Shown here piece after piece: positions 13,646 through 23,944 of a DNA stretch of 46,398 nt. Source of the stretch: an uncultured Collinsella sp. (GTDB taxonomy: Bacteria > Actinomycetota > Coriobacteriia > Coriobacteriales > Coriobacteriaceae); contig CANRSF010000017.1 of NCBI GenBank assembly GCA_947642445.1, forward strand, positions 1 to 46,398, read 5' to 3'. How positions within the stretch are numbered: position 1 is the first letter of the stretch; each line of letters starts with the position of its first letter. The position numbers and the translations under genes were made by a program. Under the pieces are notes generated by a model. The model saw nothing but the letters and a program-made list of their open reading frames with translations. It searched no databases and was not told where the DNA came from.

Positions 13646-13790
13646 GTTCCGCCGTTCTAACGAACGGCGGACCTCTTGACGCTGCGCGAGCCGCATTCAC
13701 GCCAATCTGACGTTCAATTTCGAGGGCGCGACCAGAAGGTCAGCGCCCTCTCATTTCACGTCACCTTGGCGCAAATGCGGCTCGCTCGCT
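13646..13790 (+). repeat. R1 structured 3'-UTR repeat, copy A
   Basis: It starts 4 nt after the nitroreductase stop. Hairpin I is 13648-13671 (9-bp stem). The main hairpin has stem 1 (13686-13697 with 13774-13785, 12 bp perfect), CGCCAA/TTGGCG, TGACGT/ACGTCA (13708-13713 with 13758-13763), GAGGGCGC/GCGCCCTC (13722-13729 with 13743-13750), and GACC/GGTC closing an AGAA loop. Between the end of this copy and the next gene (13882, other strand) only a GGGCAGC/GCTGCCC dyad (13836-13871) was seen. Confidence 0.85.
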
Positions 13791-13881
13791 GTTGATGACT
13801 GACATCGACCGCGTCACTGTTGGCATCTGGCACTTGGGCAGCTAAAAGGCCCCGTCCCAAATTTGCTGCCCCGCTCGCAAC

Positions 13882-14457
13882 TTATCTTGCCGATGGAGTT
13901 GTCGTCGTTTCGTTCGTGCGAGTCGTTTCGGCGCCGTCGCCTTGTTCGTCCTCGTTCTTATGCGCATCGGCGATGGTGGAGGCCGCCGCAACGATACCGC
14001 GCTGGGGCGCGACGCCCGTCTGGATCTGAGCACCCTCGACAACTTCTGTGTCTGCATGCGCGAGCTCGGGCGATTTGAACATTGCGTCCAAGTTGGCACC
14101 GCCGCCAGCATATCCGAGTGCCGCGAGTGCGATGACGATTATCGCGGCAACGACCACGATCGGCACATATCGATGCCAGCCAGCAGGATTGAGCCCACTG
14201 CGGCGAGCCGCACCGCGGCTGATATAGCCCAGCGTTCCGTCGTGCTTGAGCTTAGAGCCCACCACGCGCTTGCGCCCCCGCAGCGACGACTCGGCCTGCA
14301 TGGCCAAGCGAGCGCTTGCCGAAGGATAGCCGTATTTGGTGCGCTTGAACGAACCGTCGAACCCCGACGCGTGCTTGCCCCACGTCCGGGACGTCGTGCG
14401 GCGGTTAACTGGAGCCGCGCTCCGTCTATTCCGGTTTGATTTTGAAGTCTCCGCCAT
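13882..14457 (-). CDS. Hypothetical single-pass membrane protein
   Basis: A 191-residue protein. Residues 1-95 are very basic and Ser/Arg/Lys-rich with no recognised domain. Residues 97-118 are a hydrophobic helix (VPIVVVAAIIVIALAALGYA). Residues 119-191 are a polar, Thr/Glu/Asp-rich tail. By the positive-inside rule the N-terminus is cytosolic and the tail outside. The ATG at 14457 follows a GGGGGCG stretch; ATGs at 14490 and 14511 are alternatives. It is in the same direction as the regulator upstream (stop at 14542, 84 nt away). No function can be assigned. Confidence 0.65.
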   Translation of the reverse strand: MAETSKSNRNRRSAAPVNRRTTSRTWGKHASGFDGSFKRTKYGYPSASARLAMQAESSLRGRKRVVGSKLKHDGTLGYISRGAARRSGLNPAGWHRYVPIVVVAAIIVIALAALGYAGGGANLDAMFKSPELAHADTEVVEGAQIQTGVAPQRGIVAAASTIADAHKNEDEQGDGAETTRTNETTTTPSAR

Positions 14458-14541
14458 ACGCCCCCGCACGCCGTAACGCAATCGAAACATTACTGCTTTG
14501 GACTGTAGCACACGCGCCGCACGCGGTCACGGGTGCCTCGC

Positions 14542-15759
14542 TCAGCGGTCGTCGTCCTTCAGCAAGCGCCACAGAGTCGTGCGGCTTATCCCCAGCACCT
14601 CGGCTGCGCGGGTCCGGTTGCCCTGGAGGTAGCCTACGACCAGCCGCGCGATGTCGCGTTCGGTATCGGCCAGTGGACGCAGGATATACAGGTCGCTGTC
14701 GAGCGTCGGGGCGCCAAAAGTTGCGGTTTTGATGACATCCTCCTGGGCGAGCACCTCCTCCGCCACCGCGCGCTCCGCCACACCCGACCCTACTAATATA
14801 TACAGTCGTTCCGATACCTCGCGAAGCTGCAGATAGTTTCGTGGCCAGCGATAGCCGTTGAGCGTCGAGGCGGCCTCCTCGGACATACTCGGAGCGGCAG
14901 TTCCAAAGACATCCGACAGATACGACAAATACTGCGCAACCTTTTTCGATGCGCCACCCTGCTCGGCAATCGCAGGCGCCACACTTACTGCGCACGCCAA
15001 GCGCTCGGTTACAAAAGCGGCCTGATCGCTTTCGCCACCGCCCGGCATATCGTTTGCCGTCAGAACCACATGGCAACGCGTGGCCAGCGCCGTGTCGGTC
15101 ATCGTAGAGACAAGCTCGCGCAGACACTGCGGCGAAAGTGCATGCCAGCCGCCAATACAAAGGGTCAGCCTTGCCTGGAACAGCGGCGATTCCGAGCTTT
15201 TGAGCAGATGGCGCCAGCCGCGATCCGTGAGCTCGTCAAGTGCCACGGACACAAAGGGTTCGTCAGCATAAGGCCCATCCAGATAGAGGCGTTTTGCAAT
15301 CTCTGCCTGGCCAGCACCCAGCTCGCCCTCTAACATGAGGGGCACGCCGCGGGCATAGCTTTCGCAGACGGGACCAGCGACCGCAGCGGCACCTTCGACA
15401 ATGCCGTACGCGCTTACCTCGTAGCGCGCCTCGACCTCATCTGCGTTAAGCCACTCAATACCCGCGTGTGCCGCCACGCCGTGCACCTCGCGGACCACGA
15501 CCACCCAAAGCGCACCGTATTCCTTGGCGACCGGACGCACCGTGAGGCTCAAGCGCCCTCCCGCATGCCCCATCACCAGGCGCGCGCCGTTGTCCACGCG
15601 TCCCAGGCGCTCGGCGACAAATGCCGCGACATCTTGCTCGAGCGCGGCATCATCCATGGTCGATATCGCCACGTGTCCATGCCCATCGATTGCCAACGCC
15701 GAGGCCCCGGCAGCAGCCAAGGCCTCGATCAAGATTTGAAGCTTGGCGTCACTGTTCAT
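14542..15759 (-). CDS. Degenerate NtrC-like regulator with Fis-type DNA-binding domain
   Basis: A 405-residue protein shaped like a sigma-54 activator: an N-terminal sensor-like region (1-120), a remnant AAA+ domain (130-330) and a C-terminal Fis-type helix-turn-helix (IARLVVGYLQGNRTRAAEVLGISRTTLWRLLK). The Walker A equivalent reads GELGAGQ, so the catalytic lysine is lost, and no GAFTGA loop is present. It therefore cannot be an ordinary ATP-driven sigma-54 activator and more likely acts as a simple DNA-binding regulator. The ATG at 15759 has GGGG 6 nt upstream. It lies downstream of, and in line with, the YeiH gene (265 nt gap containing a hairpin). Confidence 0.78.
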   Translation of the reverse strand: MNSDAKLQILIEALAAAGASALAIDGHGHVAISTMDDAALEQDVAAFVAERLGRVDNGARLVMGHAGGRLSLTVRPVAKEYGALWVVVVREVHGVAAHAGIEWLNADEVEARYEVSAYGIVEGAAAVAGPVCESYARGVPLMLEGELGAGQAEIAKRLYLDGPYADEPFVSVALDELTDRGWRHLLKSSESPLFQARLTLCIGGWHALSPQCLRELVSTMTDTALATRCHVVLTANDMPGGGESDQAAFVTERLACAVSVAPAIAEQGGASKKVAQYLSYLSDVFGTAAPSMSEEAASTLNGYRWPRNYLQLREVSERLYILVGSGVAERAVAEEVLAQEDVIKTATFGAPTLDSDLYILRPLADTERDIARLVVGYLQGNRTRAAEVLGISRTTLWRLLKDDDR

Positions 15760-15883
15760 ATTGCGCCCCGTCCTCGGCGCCACGCCGCCACCGACGGCCG
15801 CGCGGGCGAGTGTTTCAAAATTGAACGATATTGCTCACCAAACACTATAGGGCAGAAGCCGCCGTCCTGCGAGTATATGAGTT

Positions 15884-15909
15884 GCCCCGCATCGCCATCC
15901 TGGCGGGGC
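15884..15909 (-). terminator. Hairpin between yeiH-like gene and the regulator
   Basis: GCCCCGC (15884-15890) pairs with GCGGGGC (15903-15909). The T run is poor, so it is a possible weak terminator. Nothing else was recognised between 15760 and 16024. Confidence 0.4.
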
Positions 15910-16024
15910 GATAAGAGCTCTTCGGGACCTATAAACCTGCGGACAAGCCATACCCGCAAGAGCTCCTATCGCTCCACCGCGAGGATGCGCTCGCCAGCAC
16001 GCAGCACGCAAATAAGCTACTTCT

Positions 16025-17059
16025 CTACCAGATTCCCAGCACGTGCTGCATTCCCAAACTCATGCACGCAATGCCAATCCAGCAGCAAAAGCCCAATGCG
16101 ATGGGCTTGCCGCCCTTTTTGACCAGCTCGACGATATCGGTATTAAAGCCAATAGCCGCCATAGCCATCACGATAAAGAACTTCGACAGCTCCTTGATAG
16201 GCGCCGTAACGGATGCAGGAAGCTGAAGCACCGTGGTGATTACGCTCGCCAGCACAAAGAACAGCACGAACATGGGAAACGCGCGTTTAAGCGAGAACGT
16301 GCTTTTGGCGTCGCCGCCGGCCTTGCGCGCCAGATGCATCTGCCAGCATGCGAGCACCAACGTAATGGGAATAATGGCCAGCGTCCTGGTGAGCTTGACC
16401 ACTGTGGCGCTTTCGAGCACATTGGCGCCGGGATGCATGCTGTCCCAGGCGCTCGCCGCAGCCGTTACCGACGAGGTGTCGTTGATGGCGGTGCCGGCAA
16501 ACAGGCCAAAGCCCTCGTTGGTCAGCCCGAGCATGCCGCCGAGCGTCGGAAACACGAGCGCCGCGATAACGTTAAACAGGAAGATGACCGAAATAGCCTG
16601 GGCAATCTCGCGATCGTCGGCATCAATGACGGGCGCGGTCGCGGCGATGGCAGAACCGCCGCAAATCGACGAACCCAAACCCACAAGCGTCGCGATCTTG
16701 CCCGGCACGTTCATAACGCGGCAGAGCACGAAGGCGATGACAAGCGAGGTCGAAATCGTCGCCACGATAATCGGCAGCGACTGAGCGCCTTTGGACAGAA
16801 TCTGCGAGAGGTTCATGCCAAAGCCAAGCAGGATTACCGCGTACTGCAAGACTTTTTTAGACGTATAGGTGACGCCGGCAGCGAGCGGTTCGCGACGATT
16901 CTTGGGGAAGACGAGCGCCAGGACCATGCCAAAGAGGATGGCAAATACCGGTCCACCGACCACCTCAATTTGTTTGCCGAGCAACGTCGCGGGGATAGCG
17001 ATGATCAGGCAGAACAAGACACCCTTCCAGCGCTCGCGTACGATATTCGCCAGTTGCAT
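16025..17059 (-). CDS. YeiH/UPF0324 family putative sulfate exporter
   Basis: A 344-residue membrane protein with about ten hydrophobic helices. The family segments GPVFAILFGMVLAL, LLGFGMNLSQIL, GLGSSICGGSAIAA and the NDTSSVTAAA loop are present. Family members are predicted to export sulfate or related anions; the transport role rests on homology only. The ATG follows AAGGAA with 6-nt spacing. It is divergent from a GntR-family gene (163 nt apart), which may control it. Confidence 0.88.
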   Translation of the reverse strand: MQLANIVRERWKGVLFCLIIAIPATLLGKQIEVVGGPVFAILFGMVLALVFPKNRREPLAAGVTYTSKKVLQYAVILLGFGMNLSQILSKGAQSLPIIVATISTSLVIAFVLCRVMNVPGKIATLVGLGSSICGGSAIAATAPVIDADDREIAQAISVIFLFNVIAALVFPTLGGMLGLTNEGFGLFAGTAINDTSSVTAAASAWDSMHPGANVLESATVVKLTRTLAIIPITLVLACWQMHLARKAGGDAKSTFSLKRAFPMFVLFFVLASVITTVLQLPASVTAPIKELSKFFIVMAMAAIGFNTDIVELVKKGGKPIALGFCCWIGIACMSLGMQHVLGIW

Positions 17060-17222
17060 ATGGGATTCCTTCTTTCTATTTCACGTTTGCGACGGTTTAT
17101 GATACGGCAACATTGAGCATAGCCTTGCGTAAACAACGACTAAGACGCCGCAATAGTTCTCAGGCAACAGCCGAATTACCCACCGCGGAGAGCTGATTCG
17201 CGGCATAATTAACAACTGACAT

Positions 17223-17954
17223 ATGAGTGTGATAGAACAGTTGCGAGGCGCTATGGAAGAATCGATGCACGTCGGCGAGCAGGAAACGAGTCTACAGGAC
17301 CAGTCCTACCACACCATTCGACGCAAAATCGTCTACCTGGACTACAAGCCGGGCGAAAAGCTGGGCGTCAAGCAGCTTTGTGACGACCTTGATATGGGGC
17401 GCACTCCTGTGCGCGAGGCACTGGTGCGTCTGGCGCAAGAGGGCCTGGTGCGCACCGTGCCCCAAAGCGGCACCTATGTCTCGCCCATCAACCTCACCCT
17501 CGCCGAGAGTGCCTGTTACATCCGCGAGCATCTGGAAAAGCAAGTGATCGTGGAGTGCTGTGCGCGCGCCACGTCGGCCAGCATCGAGCAGCTCGACCGC
17601 TCCATCGCGCTGCAGGAAAAGGCCATGGCCGAAGAGGATCGCATCGGTTTCTTTTTGAGCGACAACCTCATGCATCACATGATTTTTAGCATCGCATGTC
17701 GCAGCACCGTGTGGTCGTGGCTCGAAGAGACCAATGCCGACCTGGAGCGCTTCCGCTGGCTGCGCGCCGCCACGCAGGTTCTCGACAATCAGGACATCGT
17801 GAACGAGCACAAGCAGATTCGCCGCGCTATCGCCGGTCGCGACCCCATCGAAGCGAGCTTTTTGGTCAGCAAGCACCTGCACATGATGTTCCGCAACCAG
17901 ACCGAGGTCCTGGACCAATATCCCAAGTACTTCGAGACCAGCAAGCTCCGCTAA
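17223..17954 (+). CDS. GntR-family regulator, FadR/FCD subgroup
   Basis: A 243-residue regulator. The GntR winged helix is at about residues 28-92 (KPGEKLGVKQLCDDLDMGRTPVREALVRL), followed by an all-helical FCD ligand domain with metal-site type His and Asp residues (FLSDNLMHHMIF, NEHKQIRRAI). FCD regulators usually sense small carboxylates. The ATG at 17223 has no Shine-Dalgarno; the in-frame ATG at 17253 has GAGG 4 nt upstream and could be the real start (233 residues). Its stop codon is the first part of repeat R2 copy a. Confidence 0.9.
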   Translation: MSVIEQLRGAMEESMHVGEQETSLQDQSYHTIRRKIVYLDYKPGEKLGVKQLCDDLDMGRTPVREALVRLAQEGLVRTVPQSGTYVSPINLTLAESACYIREHLEKQVIVECCARATSASIEQLDRSIALQEKAMAEEDRIGFFLSDNLMHHMIFSIACRSTVWSWLEETNADLERFRWLRAATQVLDNQDIVNEHKQIRRAIAGRDPIEASFLVSKHLHMMFRNQTEVLDQYPKYFETSKLR

Positions 17955-18001
17955 CCTGCCAAAAAGGGACAAGTTTATTTTGGCAGGTTTTATCTGGGCA
18001 A
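17952..18001 (+). repeat. R2 hairpin repeat, copy a
   Basis: AACCTGCCAAAA and TTTTGGCAGGTT form a 12-bp stem around an AGGGACAAGTTTA loop, followed by the invariant TTTTATCTG. The GntR stop codon TAA forms its first bases. A second GC hairpin (18011-18040) follows. Confidence 0.8.
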
Positions 18002-18010
18002 ACGCAACAA

Positions 18011-18040
18011 GGCCCGACTCCGCCACAGCGGAGCCGGGCC
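18011..18040 (+). terminator. Terminator-like hairpin after R2 copy a
   Basis: GGCCCGACTCCG (18011-18022) pairs with CGGAGCCGGGCC (18029-18040) with one mismatch, followed by CTTCTTGTT. It probably ends transcription from the GntR gene. Confidence 0.55.
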
Positions 18041-18089
18041 CTTCTTGTTAGCGCGTTTCGACAACGGAGCACCTGATGTCAGTCACCAA

Positions 18090-18236
18090 CAGCGAGCGAG
18101 CCGCATTTGCGCCAAGGTGACGTGAAATGAGAGGGCGCTGACCTTCTGGTCGCGCCCTCGAAATTGAACGTCAGATTGGCGTGAATGCGGCTCGCGCAGC
18201 GTCGAGCAGTTCCGGCGTTTGGTAAAACGCCGGAAC
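18090..18236 (-). repeat. R1 structured 3'-UTR repeat, copy B
   Basis: Minus-strand copy that starts 5 nt after the glmS stop. Hairpin I (18209-18236) has a different stem sequence from copies A and C but the same shape. The main hairpin is nearly identical to copy A, including the GACC-AGAA-GGTC tip, over more than 100 nt. Confidence 0.85.
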
Positions 18237-18241
18237 AACAA

Positions 18242-20089
<1,848 letters not shown>

Positions 20090-20163
20090 AGGATAAATCC
20101 CTTCGCTCGCGTGACTGCAAGACGTCCACGCACAGGGGGCGCTGAGACGTATAACGTTCGAGT

Positions 20164-20169
20164 ATTGTA
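20164..20169 (-). promoter_or_regulatory. Probable glmS -10 box
   Basis: TACAAT on the minus strand, 75 nt upstream of the glmS ATG, predicting a leader of about 68 nt. No good -35 hexamer is visible; the -35 position abuts the palindromes at 20191-20223. Confidence 0.45.
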
Positions 20170-20190
20170 CTCACGCAAGCGCAAGCTGAT

Positions 20191-20223
20191 ATACCAGAAG
20201 TGGTATCTCAACTTAGATACCAC
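20191..20223. promoter_or_regulatory. Overlapping operator-like palindromes upstream of glmS
   Basis: ATACCA-GAAG-TGGTAT (20191-20206) overlaps GTGGTATCT (20200-20208), which pairs with AGATACCAC (20215-20223). Both are perfect. The TGGTAT/ATACCA half-site resembles operators of HutC-type GntR regulators. The position over the -35 region fits repression of glmS, but the regulator is not identified. Confidence 0.5.
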
Positions 20224-20242
20224 CCGATGCACACATGCCCAG

Positions 20243-20295
20243 CCGGTCCAAACCACCACGAAGGGGACAGGCACCTTTGTGGTGGTTTGGACCGG
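20243..20295. repeat. R3 hairpin repeat, copy 1
   Basis: Perfect 17-bp arms (20243-20259 with 20279-20295) enclose a loop containing AAGGGGACAGGCACC. It is the left member of an inverted pair with 20479-20515. Confidence 0.8.
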
Positions 20296-20320
20296 GGCGG
20301 CGGCCTATCCCGGCGAAAGA

Positions 20321-20458
20321 TCTCAATCTGTAACATCTGGGCCGCAATAAGCCGGCTTAGTGTTACAGATCGAGACATTACGGTTCGGCCCCAGCACTAT
20401 GTCTCGATCCGTAACAGGTAGAGGCGGTTTTGCCGTCCAGATGTTACAGATCGAGACA
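20321..20458. repeat. R5: four alternating copies of a 17-bp motif
   Basis: The motif TGTTACAGATCGAGACA occurs at 20361-20377 and 20442-20458 on the plus strand, and in inverted form at 20321-20335 (15 bases) and 20400-20416, with one or two substitutions. Neighbouring inverted copies make two hairpins. The whole block is enclosed by the R3 pair. Confidence 0.8.
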
Positions 20459-20478
20459 ATTGAAGGCCCGGGCGTCTC

Positions 20479-20515
20479 AAACCACCACAAAGGTGCCTGT
20501 CCCCTTCGTGGTGGT
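20479..20515. repeat. R3 hairpin repeat, copy 2 (inverted)
   Basis: ACCACCAC (20481-20488) pairs with GTGGTGGT (20508-20515). The loop is the reverse complement of the copy 1 loop (GGTGCCTGTCCCCTT), so this copy is inverted relative to 20243-20295. Confidence 0.8.
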
Positions 20516-20537
20516 CGCGATGGCAACGGCGTTTTCG

Positions 20538-20584
20538 CAGATAAAACCTACCAAAATAAACCTGTCCCTAATTGGCAGGTTTTG
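20538..20584 (-). repeat. R2 hairpin repeat, copy b
   Basis: Minus-strand copy with loop AGGGACAGGTTTA and the invariant TTTTATCTG tail. It sits between R3 copy 2 and the lacI-type gene, within about 65 nt of its start. Confidence 0.8.
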
Positions 20585-20647
20585 ACACCCCAGGGACGGG
20601 CGATGCTACAATCTGGCTTGTACTTGAAACGCATCAAAGGGGCCGCT

Positions 20648-21781
20648 ATGGCAAAGGTAAAAATCAGCGACGTCGCGCGCGAGGCAGGGGTCTCGCTGGG
20701 CACGGTATCCAACGCGCTCAACCACCCCGAAAAGTTGCGCCCCGAAACCCTTAAGCTCATCAACGAGACCATTAATCGCCTTGGCTACCTGCCCAACCAA
20801 AGCGCCCGTCAGCTCGCAGGCGGCGCCACCAAGTCCTTTGGCCTGGTCCTCCCCCGTCTCGACCACGGCTTTTCGCTCCAGATTGCCAGCGGTGCCCACA
20901 ACGAGGCACGCAAGCACGGCTATGACTTGCTCATCGCTAACGCCGACAACGACGACATTCTCGAAGACCATTACCTGCGCTACTTTATGGGCACGCAGAT
21001 GTCCGGCGTCATGGTTCAGCCCATGGCATCCCCCGACTGGCACCCGGCCATGACTAAAGTGCCCGTGCCGATCGTCCATCTGGACATCCACTGCTCCGAG
21101 CCCGGTTATTACGTGGCTGCCGACAACGAGGCACAAGGCCGCATTATCGCCGAGCTCGCCGTTGCCCGTGGCGCACGCCATATCACCGTTGTGGGCAGAG
21201 CGGCATTTATGCAGCTCACTTTGCGCGTACTTGGCATCCATAAGGCCCTCGCCCTGCATCCCGATATCAAGATCGAAGTCATCGACGCCGGCGAATGGAA
21301 TACCGCTGCCGACGGCTACGGCATCGGTGCCCAAATCGCTGAGCGCCCCGCGGACGAGCGCCCCGACTTCGTGGTCGGCCTGACCGACGTATTGGCCTCG
21401 GGCGTTATCTCGGCGCTGACCGACAAAGGCATCTCCGTCCCCGAGCAGGTTCGCGTGGCCGGATGCGACGGCAACCCACTCGCTTGGAGCGGGGCGGTCC
21501 CGCTCACCACGGTAGCACCCCCAGGCTACGAGATTGGCCGCAAGGGCGTTCAATTGCTCATGGAGCAAATCGAGAACAAGGCGCCGGCGAAGACAAAGCA
21601 TGTCCGCATCGGCTCTGCCGCGCGCACCGTCACCGCGGTCACGGCCATCGAGGACATCAACCGTCAGGAAATCGTGCGTCCCTTCTTGCTCGAGCGCGTA
21701 AGCACCCAAAATGCCAAGCCGCATCCGACGGGCCAACCCATAGTCCCGACAACCGACATCAACCTGGGCGCCTACCTGTAA
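20648..21781 (+). CDS. LacI-family transcriptional regulator
   Basis: A 377-residue LacI/GalR regulator. The N-terminal helix-turn-helix is at residues 4-24 (VKISDVAREAGVSLGTVSNAL), then a hinge helix (YLPNQSARQLAGG) and a periplasmic-binding-protein-like sugar domain. The ATG at 20648 has AAAGGGG 5 nt upstream; the frame is open further 5' but that part lies in repeats. No transporter is adjacent, so the effector is unknown. A degraded second copy of its C-terminal part lies at 24272-24387. A terminator follows. Confidence 0.93.
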   Translation: MAKVKISDVAREAGVSLGTVSNALNHPEKLRPETLKLINETINRLGYLPNQSARQLAGGATKSFGLVLPRLDHGFSLQIASGAHNEARKHGYDLLIANADNDDILEDHYLRYFMGTQMSGVMVQPMASPDWHPAMTKVPVPIVHLDIHCSEPGYYVAADNEAQGRIIAELAVARGARHITVVGRAAFMQLTLRVLGIHKALALHPDIKIEVIDAGEWNTAADGYGIGAQIAERPADERPDFVVGLTDVLASGVISALTDKGISVPEQVRVAGCDGNPLAWSGAVPLTTVAPPGYEIGRKGVQLLMEQIENKAPAKTKHVRIGSAARTVTAVTAIEDINRQEIVRPFLLERVSTQNAKPHPTGQPIVPTTDINLGAYL

Positions 21782-21782
21782 A

Positions 21783-21822
21783 AAAAACGCCGCAACGGAA
21801 ACAGCCCCGCTGCGGCGTTTTT
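21783..21822 (+). terminator. Intrinsic terminator of the lacI-type gene
   Basis: AAAAACGCCGC (21783-21793) pairs with GCGGCGTTTTT (21812-21822), ending in T5, 2 nt after the stop. Confidence 0.9.
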
Positions 21823-22016
21823 GCTGACCCCACGGGCCTTCCCCGTTTAGCCGAACCTGCGGCTACGGATTTTTATGGAATGTAATCCATTTTTCATTAG
21901 CTTTTTTGCAAAAATGTATTCAATTCCATTTTTTAGAACAGCGCCTCCACGCAGGCGCCGTTACCGTCACCGTCCTGCGGGATCGGGCGCGGGGCATGGC
22001 GACTCGCGTGCAAACG

Positions 22017-22667
22017 CTAGCGCACGGCCTTGACCGCCGCCGTCAGATCGAACAGCGTATCGAGCACGGCCTCGCAGCCATCCACCACGTCCTGCGGCAG
22101 CGGCACGATATCGGGGACGGCAAAGACGTGGCAGCCGGCCGTGATGCCCGAGACGCAGCCGTTGCGGGAATCCTCGACCACGGCGCACTCCTCGGGAGCA
22201 AAGCCCGCGCGCTCGCAGGCGAGCAGATACATCTCGGGGTCGGGCTTGCCGTGTACGACGTCCTCGCCGCAGGTCACCGTCTCAAACTTATCAAAGAGGC
22301 CGACCGTCTTAAGGTTGCGCTCGGCGGTAACATGGCGCGACGACGTCGCGAGGTCCACGTGATAGCCCGCAGCCAGCAGTTCGTCCAGGCACTCGGCGGC
22401 GCCGGCCTTAAGCTCCAGATCGGTCTTGACCATCTCGTCGCGAATCTCCCTATGGCGACGATAGATTGCCTCAGCGGTTTCGCGGCTGCCGTAATGCCCA
22501 TCAAGGATCTTCATGACATCGGGCAGCGTGCGGCCGATAAACTGATGGATCAGCGCATCATCAATCGCGAATCCCAGCTCGGCCGCTCCCGCCTTCCACG
22601 CCTTGATACCCAAACGCTCGGTATCGACCAGCGTTCCGTCCATATCAAAAATAACAGCCTTGATCAT
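22017..22667 (-). CDS. HAD-superfamily hydrolase, beta-phosphoglucomutase-like (copy 1)
   Basis: A 216-residue HAD phosphatase or phosphomutase. Motif I is FDMDGTLVD with nucleophile D8 and acid D10. Motif II is ATSSR, the motif III lysine lies in GKPDPEMYLLA, and motif IV is VVEDSRNG. An alpha-helical cap (type C1) lies between motifs I and II, as in beta-phosphoglucomutase and small sugar-phosphate phosphatases. The start at 22667 has GGGGGA 5 nt upstream; the frame is open further upstream without a ribosome site. It is divergent from larE (174 nt apart) and convergent with the lacI-type gene. A close paralogue is at 24384-25034. Confidence 0.92.
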   Translation of the reverse strand: MIKAVIFDMDGTLVDTERLGIKAWKAGAAELGFAIDDALIHQFIGRTLPDVMKILDGHYGSRETAEAIYRRHREIRDEMVKTDLELKAGAAECLDELLAAGYHVDLATSSRHVTAERNLKTVGLFDKFETVTCGEDVVHGKPDPEMYLLACERAGFAPEECAVVEDSRNGCVSGITAGCHVFAVPDIVPLPQDVVDGCEAVLDTLFDLTAAVKAVR

Positions 22668-22840
22668 ATCGGTCCCCCATCGCTTCGCGCTGCTGTACTC
22701 CCGCAACTTTACCGCACTTGTAAACTTGTATATAACGTATATAGCATATTGCACTTTCGTTACATAGATAGAAGTCTTATGACAAGTGGCTCGGTAGGAT
22801 TATAGTTTTCGACCGAGTACTCAACGGCAAGGATCGATTC

Positions 22841-23719
22841 ATGCTTTCAGACACCACCGCACCTGCAGAGGGGCTTCAGGACAAACTCGCAGCGCTCGAG
22901 CAGCTGCTTTTGGCATACGGACGCGTCGCCATCGGCTTTTCCGGTGGCGTCGACAGCAGCTTTTTGGCCGCGGTCTGCGCCCGCATCATGCCCGCCAGCA
23001 CGCTTCTCGTTCACCTCACCACGCCGCTCATCGGCACGCCCGAGCAGGCTTCGTTTGAGCGGTCCGTTGACGGGCAGGCCGATGAGGGGCCGCATTTTAA
23101 GCTCCCCGTGCTCAATCTTTCGGTCGATCAGCTGCGGCTCCCCCAAGTAGCCTGCAACGATGCCGACCGCTGCTACCACTGCAAGCGCGCCGGCTTTACC
23201 GCCATCGTCAACCACGCCAAGTCGCTGGGCTTTCCCACCGTCATCGACGGCAGCAACGCAAGCGACCGCGGCGACTACCGCCCCGGCATGCGCGCCGCCC
23301 AGGAGCTCGGCGTGCGCTCGCCCCTCATGGAGGTCGGCTTTACCAAGGACGAAGAGCGCGAGCTGCTGCGCGCCTGGGGCTATCCCGTTTGGAACCTGCC
23401 GGCAGGAGCCTGCCTGGCCACGCGTGTCCCCACGGGCGAGGAGCTCACACGCGAGAAGGTCGATGTGATCCGCGCCTGCGAGGACTACCTGCACGATCTT
23501 GGCCTGGCGCAGATCCGCGCACGCCTCGTCGGCGGCTGCATGCATATCGAGGCCGCACCGGCAGACGTCGCCAAGATTGCCGCCCTCGGCGGTACCGCAG
23601 TCAACGACGAGGGTAAAGCCCCGCTTCCCGCCGCTATCGAATCTGCCCTGCGCAACCTAGGCTGCGGCCACATCTCCCCCGAGGTCACCCCCTACATCCA
23701 CGGCAACATGAATCTTTAG
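22841..23719 (+). CDS. larE: ATP-dependent sacrificial sulfur transferase LarE
   Basis: A 292-residue PP-loop enzyme. The adenylation loop SGGVDSS is at 34-40. CYHC (111-114) and C191 in GACLATRVP match the LarE cysteines; C191 corresponds to the cysteine that donates sulfur during synthesis of the nickel-pincer cofactor of lactate racemase. No larA, larB or larC is in this window, so the partner could lie elsewhere or the role may differ. R1 copy C starts right at its stop codon. A 41-codon relic of the same gene is at 25199-25321. Confidence 0.9.
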   Translation: MLSDTTAPAEGLQDKLAALEQLLLAYGRVAIGFSGGVDSSFLAAVCARIMPASTLLVHLTTPLIGTPEQASFERSVDGQADEGPHFKLPVLNLSVDQLRLPQVACNDADRCYHCKRAGFTAIVNHAKSLGFPTVIDGSNASDRGDYRPGMRAAQELGVRSPLMEVGFTKDEERELLRAWGYPVWNLPAGACLATRVPTGEELTREKVDVIRACEDYLHDLGLAQIRARLVGGCMHIEAAPADVAKIAALGGTAVNDEGKAPLPAAIESALRNLGCGHISPEVTPYIHGNMNL

Positions 23720-23865
23720 GTTACGCCGTTTTACAAACGGCGTACCTGCTCGGCGCTGCGCGGGCTCCGGGCACGGCAATCTGACGTTCAACTTCACGGG
23801 CGCGACCAAAAGGTCAGCGCCCGCTTGTTTCACGTCACCTTACCGCACCCGGAGCCCGCTCGCTC
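23719..23865 (+). repeat. R1 structured 3'-UTR repeat, copy C (covarying)
   Basis: It starts at the last base of the larE stop. Stem 1 is GCGGGCTCCGGG (23760-23771) with CCCGGAGCCCGC (23848-23859): still 12 perfect pairs although six positions differ from copies A and B. The TGACGT/ACGTCA stem and the GACC/GGTC tip are conserved (loop AAAA instead of AGAA). Confidence 0.85.
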
Positions 23866-23894: not shown

Positions 23895-23944
23895 GACCTG
23901 TCAATAAGGGACGGGTTTATTATGGCAGGTTTTATCTGGGGAAA
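23895..23944 (+). repeat. R2 hairpin repeat, copy c
   Basis: ACCTGTCAATA pairs imperfectly with TATGGCAGGT around an AGGGACGGGTTTAT loop, followed by TTTTATCTGGGGAAA. It lies 30 nt after R1 copy C. Confidence 0.75.

Follow-up and report, generated by a model that had tools for sequence, protein, structure and literature searches.

A stop-adjacent two-hairpin element of Coriobacteriia and its exchange between gene ends in Collinsella

Dispersed palindromes as such are already known, and several described systems resemble single parts of the element reported here. Integron attC sites also follow stop codons, and palindrome-associated derivatives of the IS200/IS605 insertion sequences are hairpins without terminal inverted repeats. 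According to excerpts of the papers cited here, repetitive extragenic palindromes (REPs) lie 3' of genes and can supply their stop codons (PMC3733652), and TnpA-REP needs mismatches in the stem (PMC8266576). For REPs of E. coli that lie no more than 15 nt from a stop codon, the count given is 446 of 4,072, an earlier one being quoted as 260 of 496, and REPs so placed stall ribosomes (PMC12306157). Of 535 highly structured 3' ends in Streptomyces clavuligerus, 353 have no U-tract (PMC8269248). The excerpts of these four papers do not describe the element itself, which we call R1. It occurs in three copies in a 46,398-nt stretch of DNA from an uncultured Collinsella sp. (contig CANRSF010000017.1 of assembly GCA_947642445.1; hereafter the window). 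From its placement, structure, exchange and replacement of terminators, we infer that R1 may well be a portable cassette for gene ends, with an RNA that likely makes up or shields the 3' terminus of the mRNA from the gene upstream, a reading that we put forward tentatively.

R1 is ~145 nt long and consists of two hairpins followed by a short tail. The parts are ordered as hairpin I (GTTNCGNNGTT...AACNNCGNA), a spacer, the junction CTYGRCGCTGC, hairpin II with its stacked stems ending in CTCGCT, and a tail of ~25 nt. The initial annotation, made from the letters of the window, had placed the three copies in sense behind the stop codons of a nitroreductase gene, glmS and larE, and this is confirmed, with gaps of 3, 5 and 0 nt, respectively (Table 1). 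It had also correctly described the GACC-(AGAA/AAAA)-GGTC tips and the six changes between copies A and C in stem 1, all matched on the other arm. Copies A and B differ in hairpin I but agree in every letter from GACGCTG to the end of hairpin II.

The position of R1 relative to stop codons was tabulated for the strongest covariance-model matches, 24 of 35 in the source genome (2.02 Mb, 47 contigs) and 26 of 36 in the one-contig genome G002, excluding weaker, partial and reverse-strand matches. Gene ends were called by a simple reading-frame rule based on GC content at third codon positions (GC3), which misses some real ends (L087, L091, L095), so that the adjacency counts are lower bounds. At least 38 of the 50 copies start in sense between -1 and +5 nt of a stop codon (18 of 24 in the source genome and 20 of 26 in G002), compared with 0.73% of 280,478 control positions. 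The same holds for 18 of 29 copies in family f3 and for 18 of 19 further Collinsella copies with high scores, a set that includes many mutual orthologs. Copies scattered in random positions and orientations, the outcome named beforehand as one that would contradict the annotation, are therefore not what is seen, although a minority lies elsewhere. In the NCBI gene table of Collinsella aerofaciens (NZ_OY725717.1), queA, tyrS and the genes for DAHP synthase and a hexose kinase end within -1 to +1 nt of R1 model matches, and R1 also follows rpoC, lysS and a D-2-hydroxyacid dehydrogenase gene in that genome. Hairpin I is often missing in the other genera of family f1, where hairpin II then starts 2-7 nt past the stop codon in 7 of 13 copies. 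Some copies are nested in an older one (L093, L096), and some lie 50-141 nt off the stop (L082, L085).

Each window copy is predicted to fold with a stability that none of 200 shuffled sequences equals (z = -11.2 for A, -11.8 for B and -8.6 for C). In an alignment of 20 copies from the source genome, 95.8% of the cells pair, and two-sided changes occur in 32 of 51 pairs; shuffling the partners gives 23.4 +/- 1.8 such pairs, and sliding them gives 6-13. The initial annotation took such covariation as strong evidence that pairing is selected. The pairing stands, but covariation alone is no proof of its selection, because template switching can mend palindromes. The better argument lies in the internal mismatch loops that are kept and in the near absence of broken outer stems. 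Among 85 distinct hairpins of family f1, 66 have two 2x2 internal loops with a helix of 5-7 bp between them, as found by a constrained fit that scored pairs and unpaired loops and ignored base identities. In these 66 hairpins the loops read TC/CC in 52 and TC/TC in 56, whereas the helix between them takes 23 different sequence pairs. The remaining 19 failed the loop criterion, and seven of them form a single subtype in which the first loop is differently set and the second is TC/TC. Since mending of palindromes would erase mismatch loops, the kept loops speak against it, and pyrimidine loops that persist while the helix varies make R1 more than a mended palindrome. Read on the opposite strand, they are tandem G-A or G-G mismatches; the loops resemble a recognition or folding motif. 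Of the 65 hairpins whose ends can be recognised, L194 alone, a chimera of two versions, has a broken outer stem, and 4.2% of single cells in the alignment are unpaired; stem-breaking copies, set beforehand as the other outcome that would count against the element, are thus rare.

Hairpin II is exchanged between gene ends that stay occupied. Twenty sites of the source genome were compared with their orthologs in four relatives, and seven of them carry R1 in all five genomes; from this site table we quote only all-occupied sites, as the entries scored as not occupied include nested, truncated or mis-assigned alleles (such as L169 and L165). In 19 of 45 comparisons, hairpin II resembled a copy from a different gene more than its own ortholog; the ortholog was nearer in 17, and the two tied in 9. 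In the 19 cases, identity to the copy at the other gene reached 100%, and identity to the ortholog fell as low as 67%. The rpoC site is stable, with one version in all five genomes that is 99% alike. R1 is also lost, as seen at glmS of the four relatives, where it is absent and half of hairpin I is retained ahead of a terminator. At L200 and L203, hairpin II is gone while hairpin I and the tail are kept.

In L045 (~1950-2040; G000:C8), hairpin I and GACGCTGCGCGGGC are followed by unrelated sequence in place of hairpin II. At three compared sites, R1-free gene ends bear another long hairpin near the stop, roughly GTTGCGGTGGAATAGTTCC...GGAACTATTCCACCGCAAC (L190, L195, L208, L222, L242, L199), which is an alternative occupant of the gene-end niche. 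In G037, an R1-poor Collinsella relative, a further long hairpin, ACCTTCG...CGAATCTGCGGC, stands behind two stop codons (L167, L186) and has a similar ACC/TCT internal loop with the arms exchanged.

At two sites (C5:85521 and C18:21720), R1 in the source genome takes the place of a strong hairpin-plus-T-run terminator that each of the four relatives carries, without R1. The stop codon at both is TAA in the source genome and TAG in 7 of 8 alleles of the relatives, as if the copied segment had begun upstream of the stop. In the three window copies, neither hairpin is directly followed by the T-run that marks an intrinsic terminator; the one exception among copies of the source genome is L026/L100, with TTTTTT after hairpin I.

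R1 lies in sense, adjoins stop codons, is exchanged while its sites stay fixed, and replaces terminators; together this fits a portable 3'-end cassette that acts as RNA. In such a mechanism, once the polymerase moves out of the gene, hairpin I would fold at the border of the ribosome that is terminating. Hairpin II, highly stable, would block 3' exonucleases or aid release with no need of a U-tract, and any gene end could then be served by a single cassette. Copies would be spread and homogenised by recombination that copies a stop-proximal segment along with the element; no enzyme for the spread was found among the loci examined. The initial annotation had proposed either a 3'-untranslated RNA or a folded DNA mobile unit, and there is support for both: the placement of R1 is that of a transcribed 3' element, and its dispersal and exchange are those of a mobile unit.

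Several observations weigh against the RNA cassette. In a wobble test run on the model-fitted alignment, hairpin I favours the sense strand (34 G-U versus 7 A-C cells), but hairpin II has no preference (75 G-U versus 82 A-C cells). In 90 of 92 copies it is the antisense strand whose predicted fold has the greater stability, in keeping with a possible role of that strand as DNA. No stop codon lies nearby, under the gene-end rule, for 10 of the 50 copies in the source genome and G002; in the set from other genera of family f1, 6 of 23 lack one, and only 4 of 23 start within -1 to +5 nt as judged by the model start. One site (C9; L183 in G002 and L215 in G024) carries R1 antisense, between a stop codon and the start of the next gene; hairpin I there adjoins a TAATCACC motif ahead of the downstream start codon. 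The wider terminator count is only suggestive of replacement. Strong terminators (-14 kcal/mol or better) lie near 6 of 66 occupied and 15 of 45 empty ends, with a cut-off chosen once the list was known and with alleles that lack independence, and at a lax threshold T-run terminators are alike near occupied and empty ends (38/66 versus 27/45). Several occupied sites also keep a terminator further down, for example glmS, where the T-run rule misses it.

R1 is present in at least two families of Coriobacteriia. The source genome has 28 places found by BLAST and 35 model matches, some of which are fragments or the reverse strand of the palindrome. The covariance-model search of the class proposed in the initial annotation gave matches in 36 of 43 Collinsella genomes (29-43 each in 21 genomes, 0-15 each in the remaining 22), in 47 of 65 genomes and 5 of 6 genera of the family, and in 53 of 197 genomes and 22 of 93 genera of the class, the class-wide search scoring only 16 candidates per genome. 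In the second family, f3, a genome can hold as many as 42 matches (G128). In Slackia isoflavoniconvertens (Eggerthellaceae), hairpin I stands 3 nt behind the glmS stop codon, and a second hairpin I with hairpin II is nested inside; R1 occupies this gene end in the window, too. In line with the annotation's view that no named family matches, Rfam 15 at gathering scores gave no match at R1 over the whole window (two matches elsewhere are the signal recognition particle RNA and a tRNA), and copy A found nothing in Rfam up to E 5. Neither a search of viral contigs with two exact patterns nor blastn against phages gave an R1 match, and the sole plasmid match is a 900-kb Collinsella contig labelled as plasmid; phage or plasmid cargo is accordingly rejected. 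No description of R1 was found in text searches aimed at Collinsella, Eggerthella or Coriobacteriia, or in the excerpts of PMC8040213, a weak sign of absence since subscription journals lay mostly outside and the papers retrieved did not always name the taxon.

A less likely alternative is that R1 is a selfish, non-autonomous hairpin of single-stranded DNA, moved in trans by an HUH (Y1) transposase like REPs or IS200/IS605 derivatives, in which the mismatch loops are recognition marks for the enzyme and gene ends merely tolerate insertions. Near-identical copies are indeed dispersed at unrelated genes, presence and absence differ between species, and the better folding of the antisense strand would agree. 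Going by the excerpts, mismatches kept in a varying stem match what E. coli TnpA-REP requires (PMC8266576), and REPs with the GTAG tag often supply the stop codon of flanking open reading frames (PMC3733652). Y1-transposase genes occur in 37 of 43 Collinsella genomes, and the six without one have 0-1 R1 matches each; however, so do five of the 37, and kinship confounds the correlation. None of 20 fetched loci of the REP-associated tyrosine transposase (RAYT) type carries R1 (E 1 or better), and the flanks of the 18 inspected hold other palindromes or none, so R1 is rejected as the cognate REP of the RAYTs at these loci. One of eight further Y1 loci, from a pattern scan, does have R1, but as a target: an IS200/IS605 element sits inside hairpin II, and the halves of R1 flank it (G026, L132 1100-2250). 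A separate palindromic repeat, built on the core TTGGGGACAGACTTAAATGAGT or on near versions of it, stands on both sides of a Y1/RAYT gene (L156 1514-1577 and 2509-2572), is scattered at gene ends, occurs also in L202 and 3' of R1 in L004, and is possibly the true REP of the RAYT that it flanks. Simple insertion with target duplication is not favoured by the alleles inspected, in which neither duplication nor terminal repeats were seen by eye (no repeat search of the R1 ends was run), and native sequence is replaced and not just split. No transposon end was recognised at R1, no transposon-end library having been searched. Four contigs break inside R1 and L024 runs into other sequence, but no carrier gene was identified, and a longer autonomous element with R1 ends was also set aside; by the standards of IS200/IS605-type elements, the lack of visible duplication stands beside the lack of an identified autonomous copy, for which the contigs ending inside R1 leave room. 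Tolerance alone, finally, leaves the -1 to +5 nt spacing and the sense orientation unexplained.

It is improbable that R1 instead acts on translation, hairpin I slowing termination or recycling from within the footprint of the terminating ribosome and so tuning the output of the upstream gene. The near-stop start of hairpin I in 38 of the 50 strong copies would suit this, as would hairpin II taking its place 2-7 nt past the stop in 7 of 13 copies that lack it, and such an action is reported, in the excerpts of PMC12306157, for those REPs of E. coli that lie up to 15 nt from a stop. In some copies (L086 in the source genome; L412 and L413 in f3), the reading frame even enters hairpin I, which supplies the stop codon in its loop. 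Still, the long hairpin II and the replacement of terminators are left unexplained, and reduced output would come at a cost in rpoC and the tRNA synthetase genes, which are among the hosts. These genes are essential elsewhere. Very improbable is a palindromic repeat with no function, its arms kept complementary by template-switch repair while it drifts by gene conversion. Perfect arms that change jointly and rapidly are what mending would produce, and copies do recombine, one chimera (L194) having a broken stem. Mending would also erase the pyrimidine mismatch loops, yet these are kept, and such a repeat explains neither the placement, nor the one prevailing orientation, nor the presence in two families.

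If R1 is a gene-end cassette acting as RNA, a bolder and rather unlikely extension is that Coriobacteriia have a third kind of terminator, a stop-anchored two-hairpin cassette whose ladder of paired pyrimidine mismatches, tandem G-A on the opposite strand, is read by a dedicated factor and which is traded between gene ends. Gene ends, and not genes, would then be the mobile part of these genomes. The same gene with, without or with a different cassette, in common human gut bacteria, is a natural experiment that makes the old question of what palindromes do at gene ends directly testable.

The features of R1 in the window are collected in Table 1. A repeat, GGGACRGGTTTATTNTGGCAGGTTTTATCTG, lies slightly 3' of two of the window copies (~23908-23939 on the plus strand and ~17980-18000 on the minus strand), and likewise 3' of orthologous R1 copies in L207 and L250.

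Table 1. R1 copies and their parts in the window
Feature	Position	Strand	Basis or relation to host gene
Copy A	13646-13790	+	Covariance model; host gene nitroreductase-family protein, stop codon 13640-13642, gap 3 nt
Copy A hairpin I (GTTCCGCCGTTCTAACGAACGGCGGAC)	13646-13672	+	3 nt 3' of nitroreductase stop
Copy A junction GACGCTGC (conserved) and hairpin II through CTCGCT	13678-13790	+	
Copy A 5' core arm CAATCTGACGTTCAA, holding both pyrimidine mismatch loops	13703-13717	+	
Copy A tip GACC-AGAA-GGTC	13730-13741	+	
Copy A 3' core arm TTTCACGTCACCTTG	13754-13768	+	
Copy A 3' tail, end not sharply defined	13791-13815	+	
Copy B	18091-18236	-	Covariance model; host gene glmS, stop codon 18242-18244 (- strand), gap 5 nt
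Copy B hairpin I	18209-18236	-	5 nt 3' of glmS stop
Copy B junction GACGCTGC and hairpin II, same as in copy A	18091-18203	-	
Copy C	23720-23864	+	Covariance model; host gene larE, stop codon 23717-23719, gap 0 nt
Copy C hairpin I	23720-23746	+	Abuts larE stop
Copy C junction GGCGCTGC and hairpin II	23752-23864	+	

As far as the excerpts of the cited papers go, the closest likeness is to the REPs and bacterial interspersed mosaic elements (BIMEs) of E. coli and Pseudomonas, which are dispersed palindromes 3' of coding regions with conserved stem mismatches (PMC3733652, PMC8266576, PMC12306157), some of them supplying the stop codon or found no more than 15 nt away from it (PMC3733652, PMC12306157). 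R1, too, lies mostly downstream of coding regions. However, REPs measure 20-40 nt, whereas R1 has two hairpins in ~145 nt; their constant GTAG/CGTC tag has no counterpart in R1, where hairpin I is preceded by the stop codon and 0-5 variable nt; and they flank their cognate RAYT gene, where R1 was found at 0 of 20 fetched loci. Stop adjacency also differs, with 38 of 50 strong R1 copies at -1 to +5 nt versus the 446 of 4,072 given for E. coli REPs at up to 15 nt and the 260 of 496 quoted from earlier work (PMC12306157). The ERIC (127 bp) and YPAL (~168 bp) repeats are palindromic and of similar length, and ERIC-type (RU-1) units are sometimes fused to the 3' ends of genes (PMC2759123). R1 differs from both in its fixed mismatch loops, its close stop adjacency and the lack of terminal repeats or target duplication visible by eye, as well as in sequence and hosts. 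In contrast to the palindrome-associated IS200/IS605 derivatives, no transposase with R1 ends was found, and one IS200/IS605 copy lies inside R1 instead. The intrinsic and U-lacking terminators of GC-rich bacteria share with R1 a stable GC-rich stem-loop at gene ends (PMC8269248), but they are single short stem-loops, whereas R1 has two hairpins with conserved junctions and loops and is swapped between genes. What appears to be new, judged against the excerpts of these papers, is the combination of stop adjacency, a covarying two-hairpin body, non-canonical loops that are fixed, occurrence in two families and swapping of the hairpin at gene ends that remain occupied.

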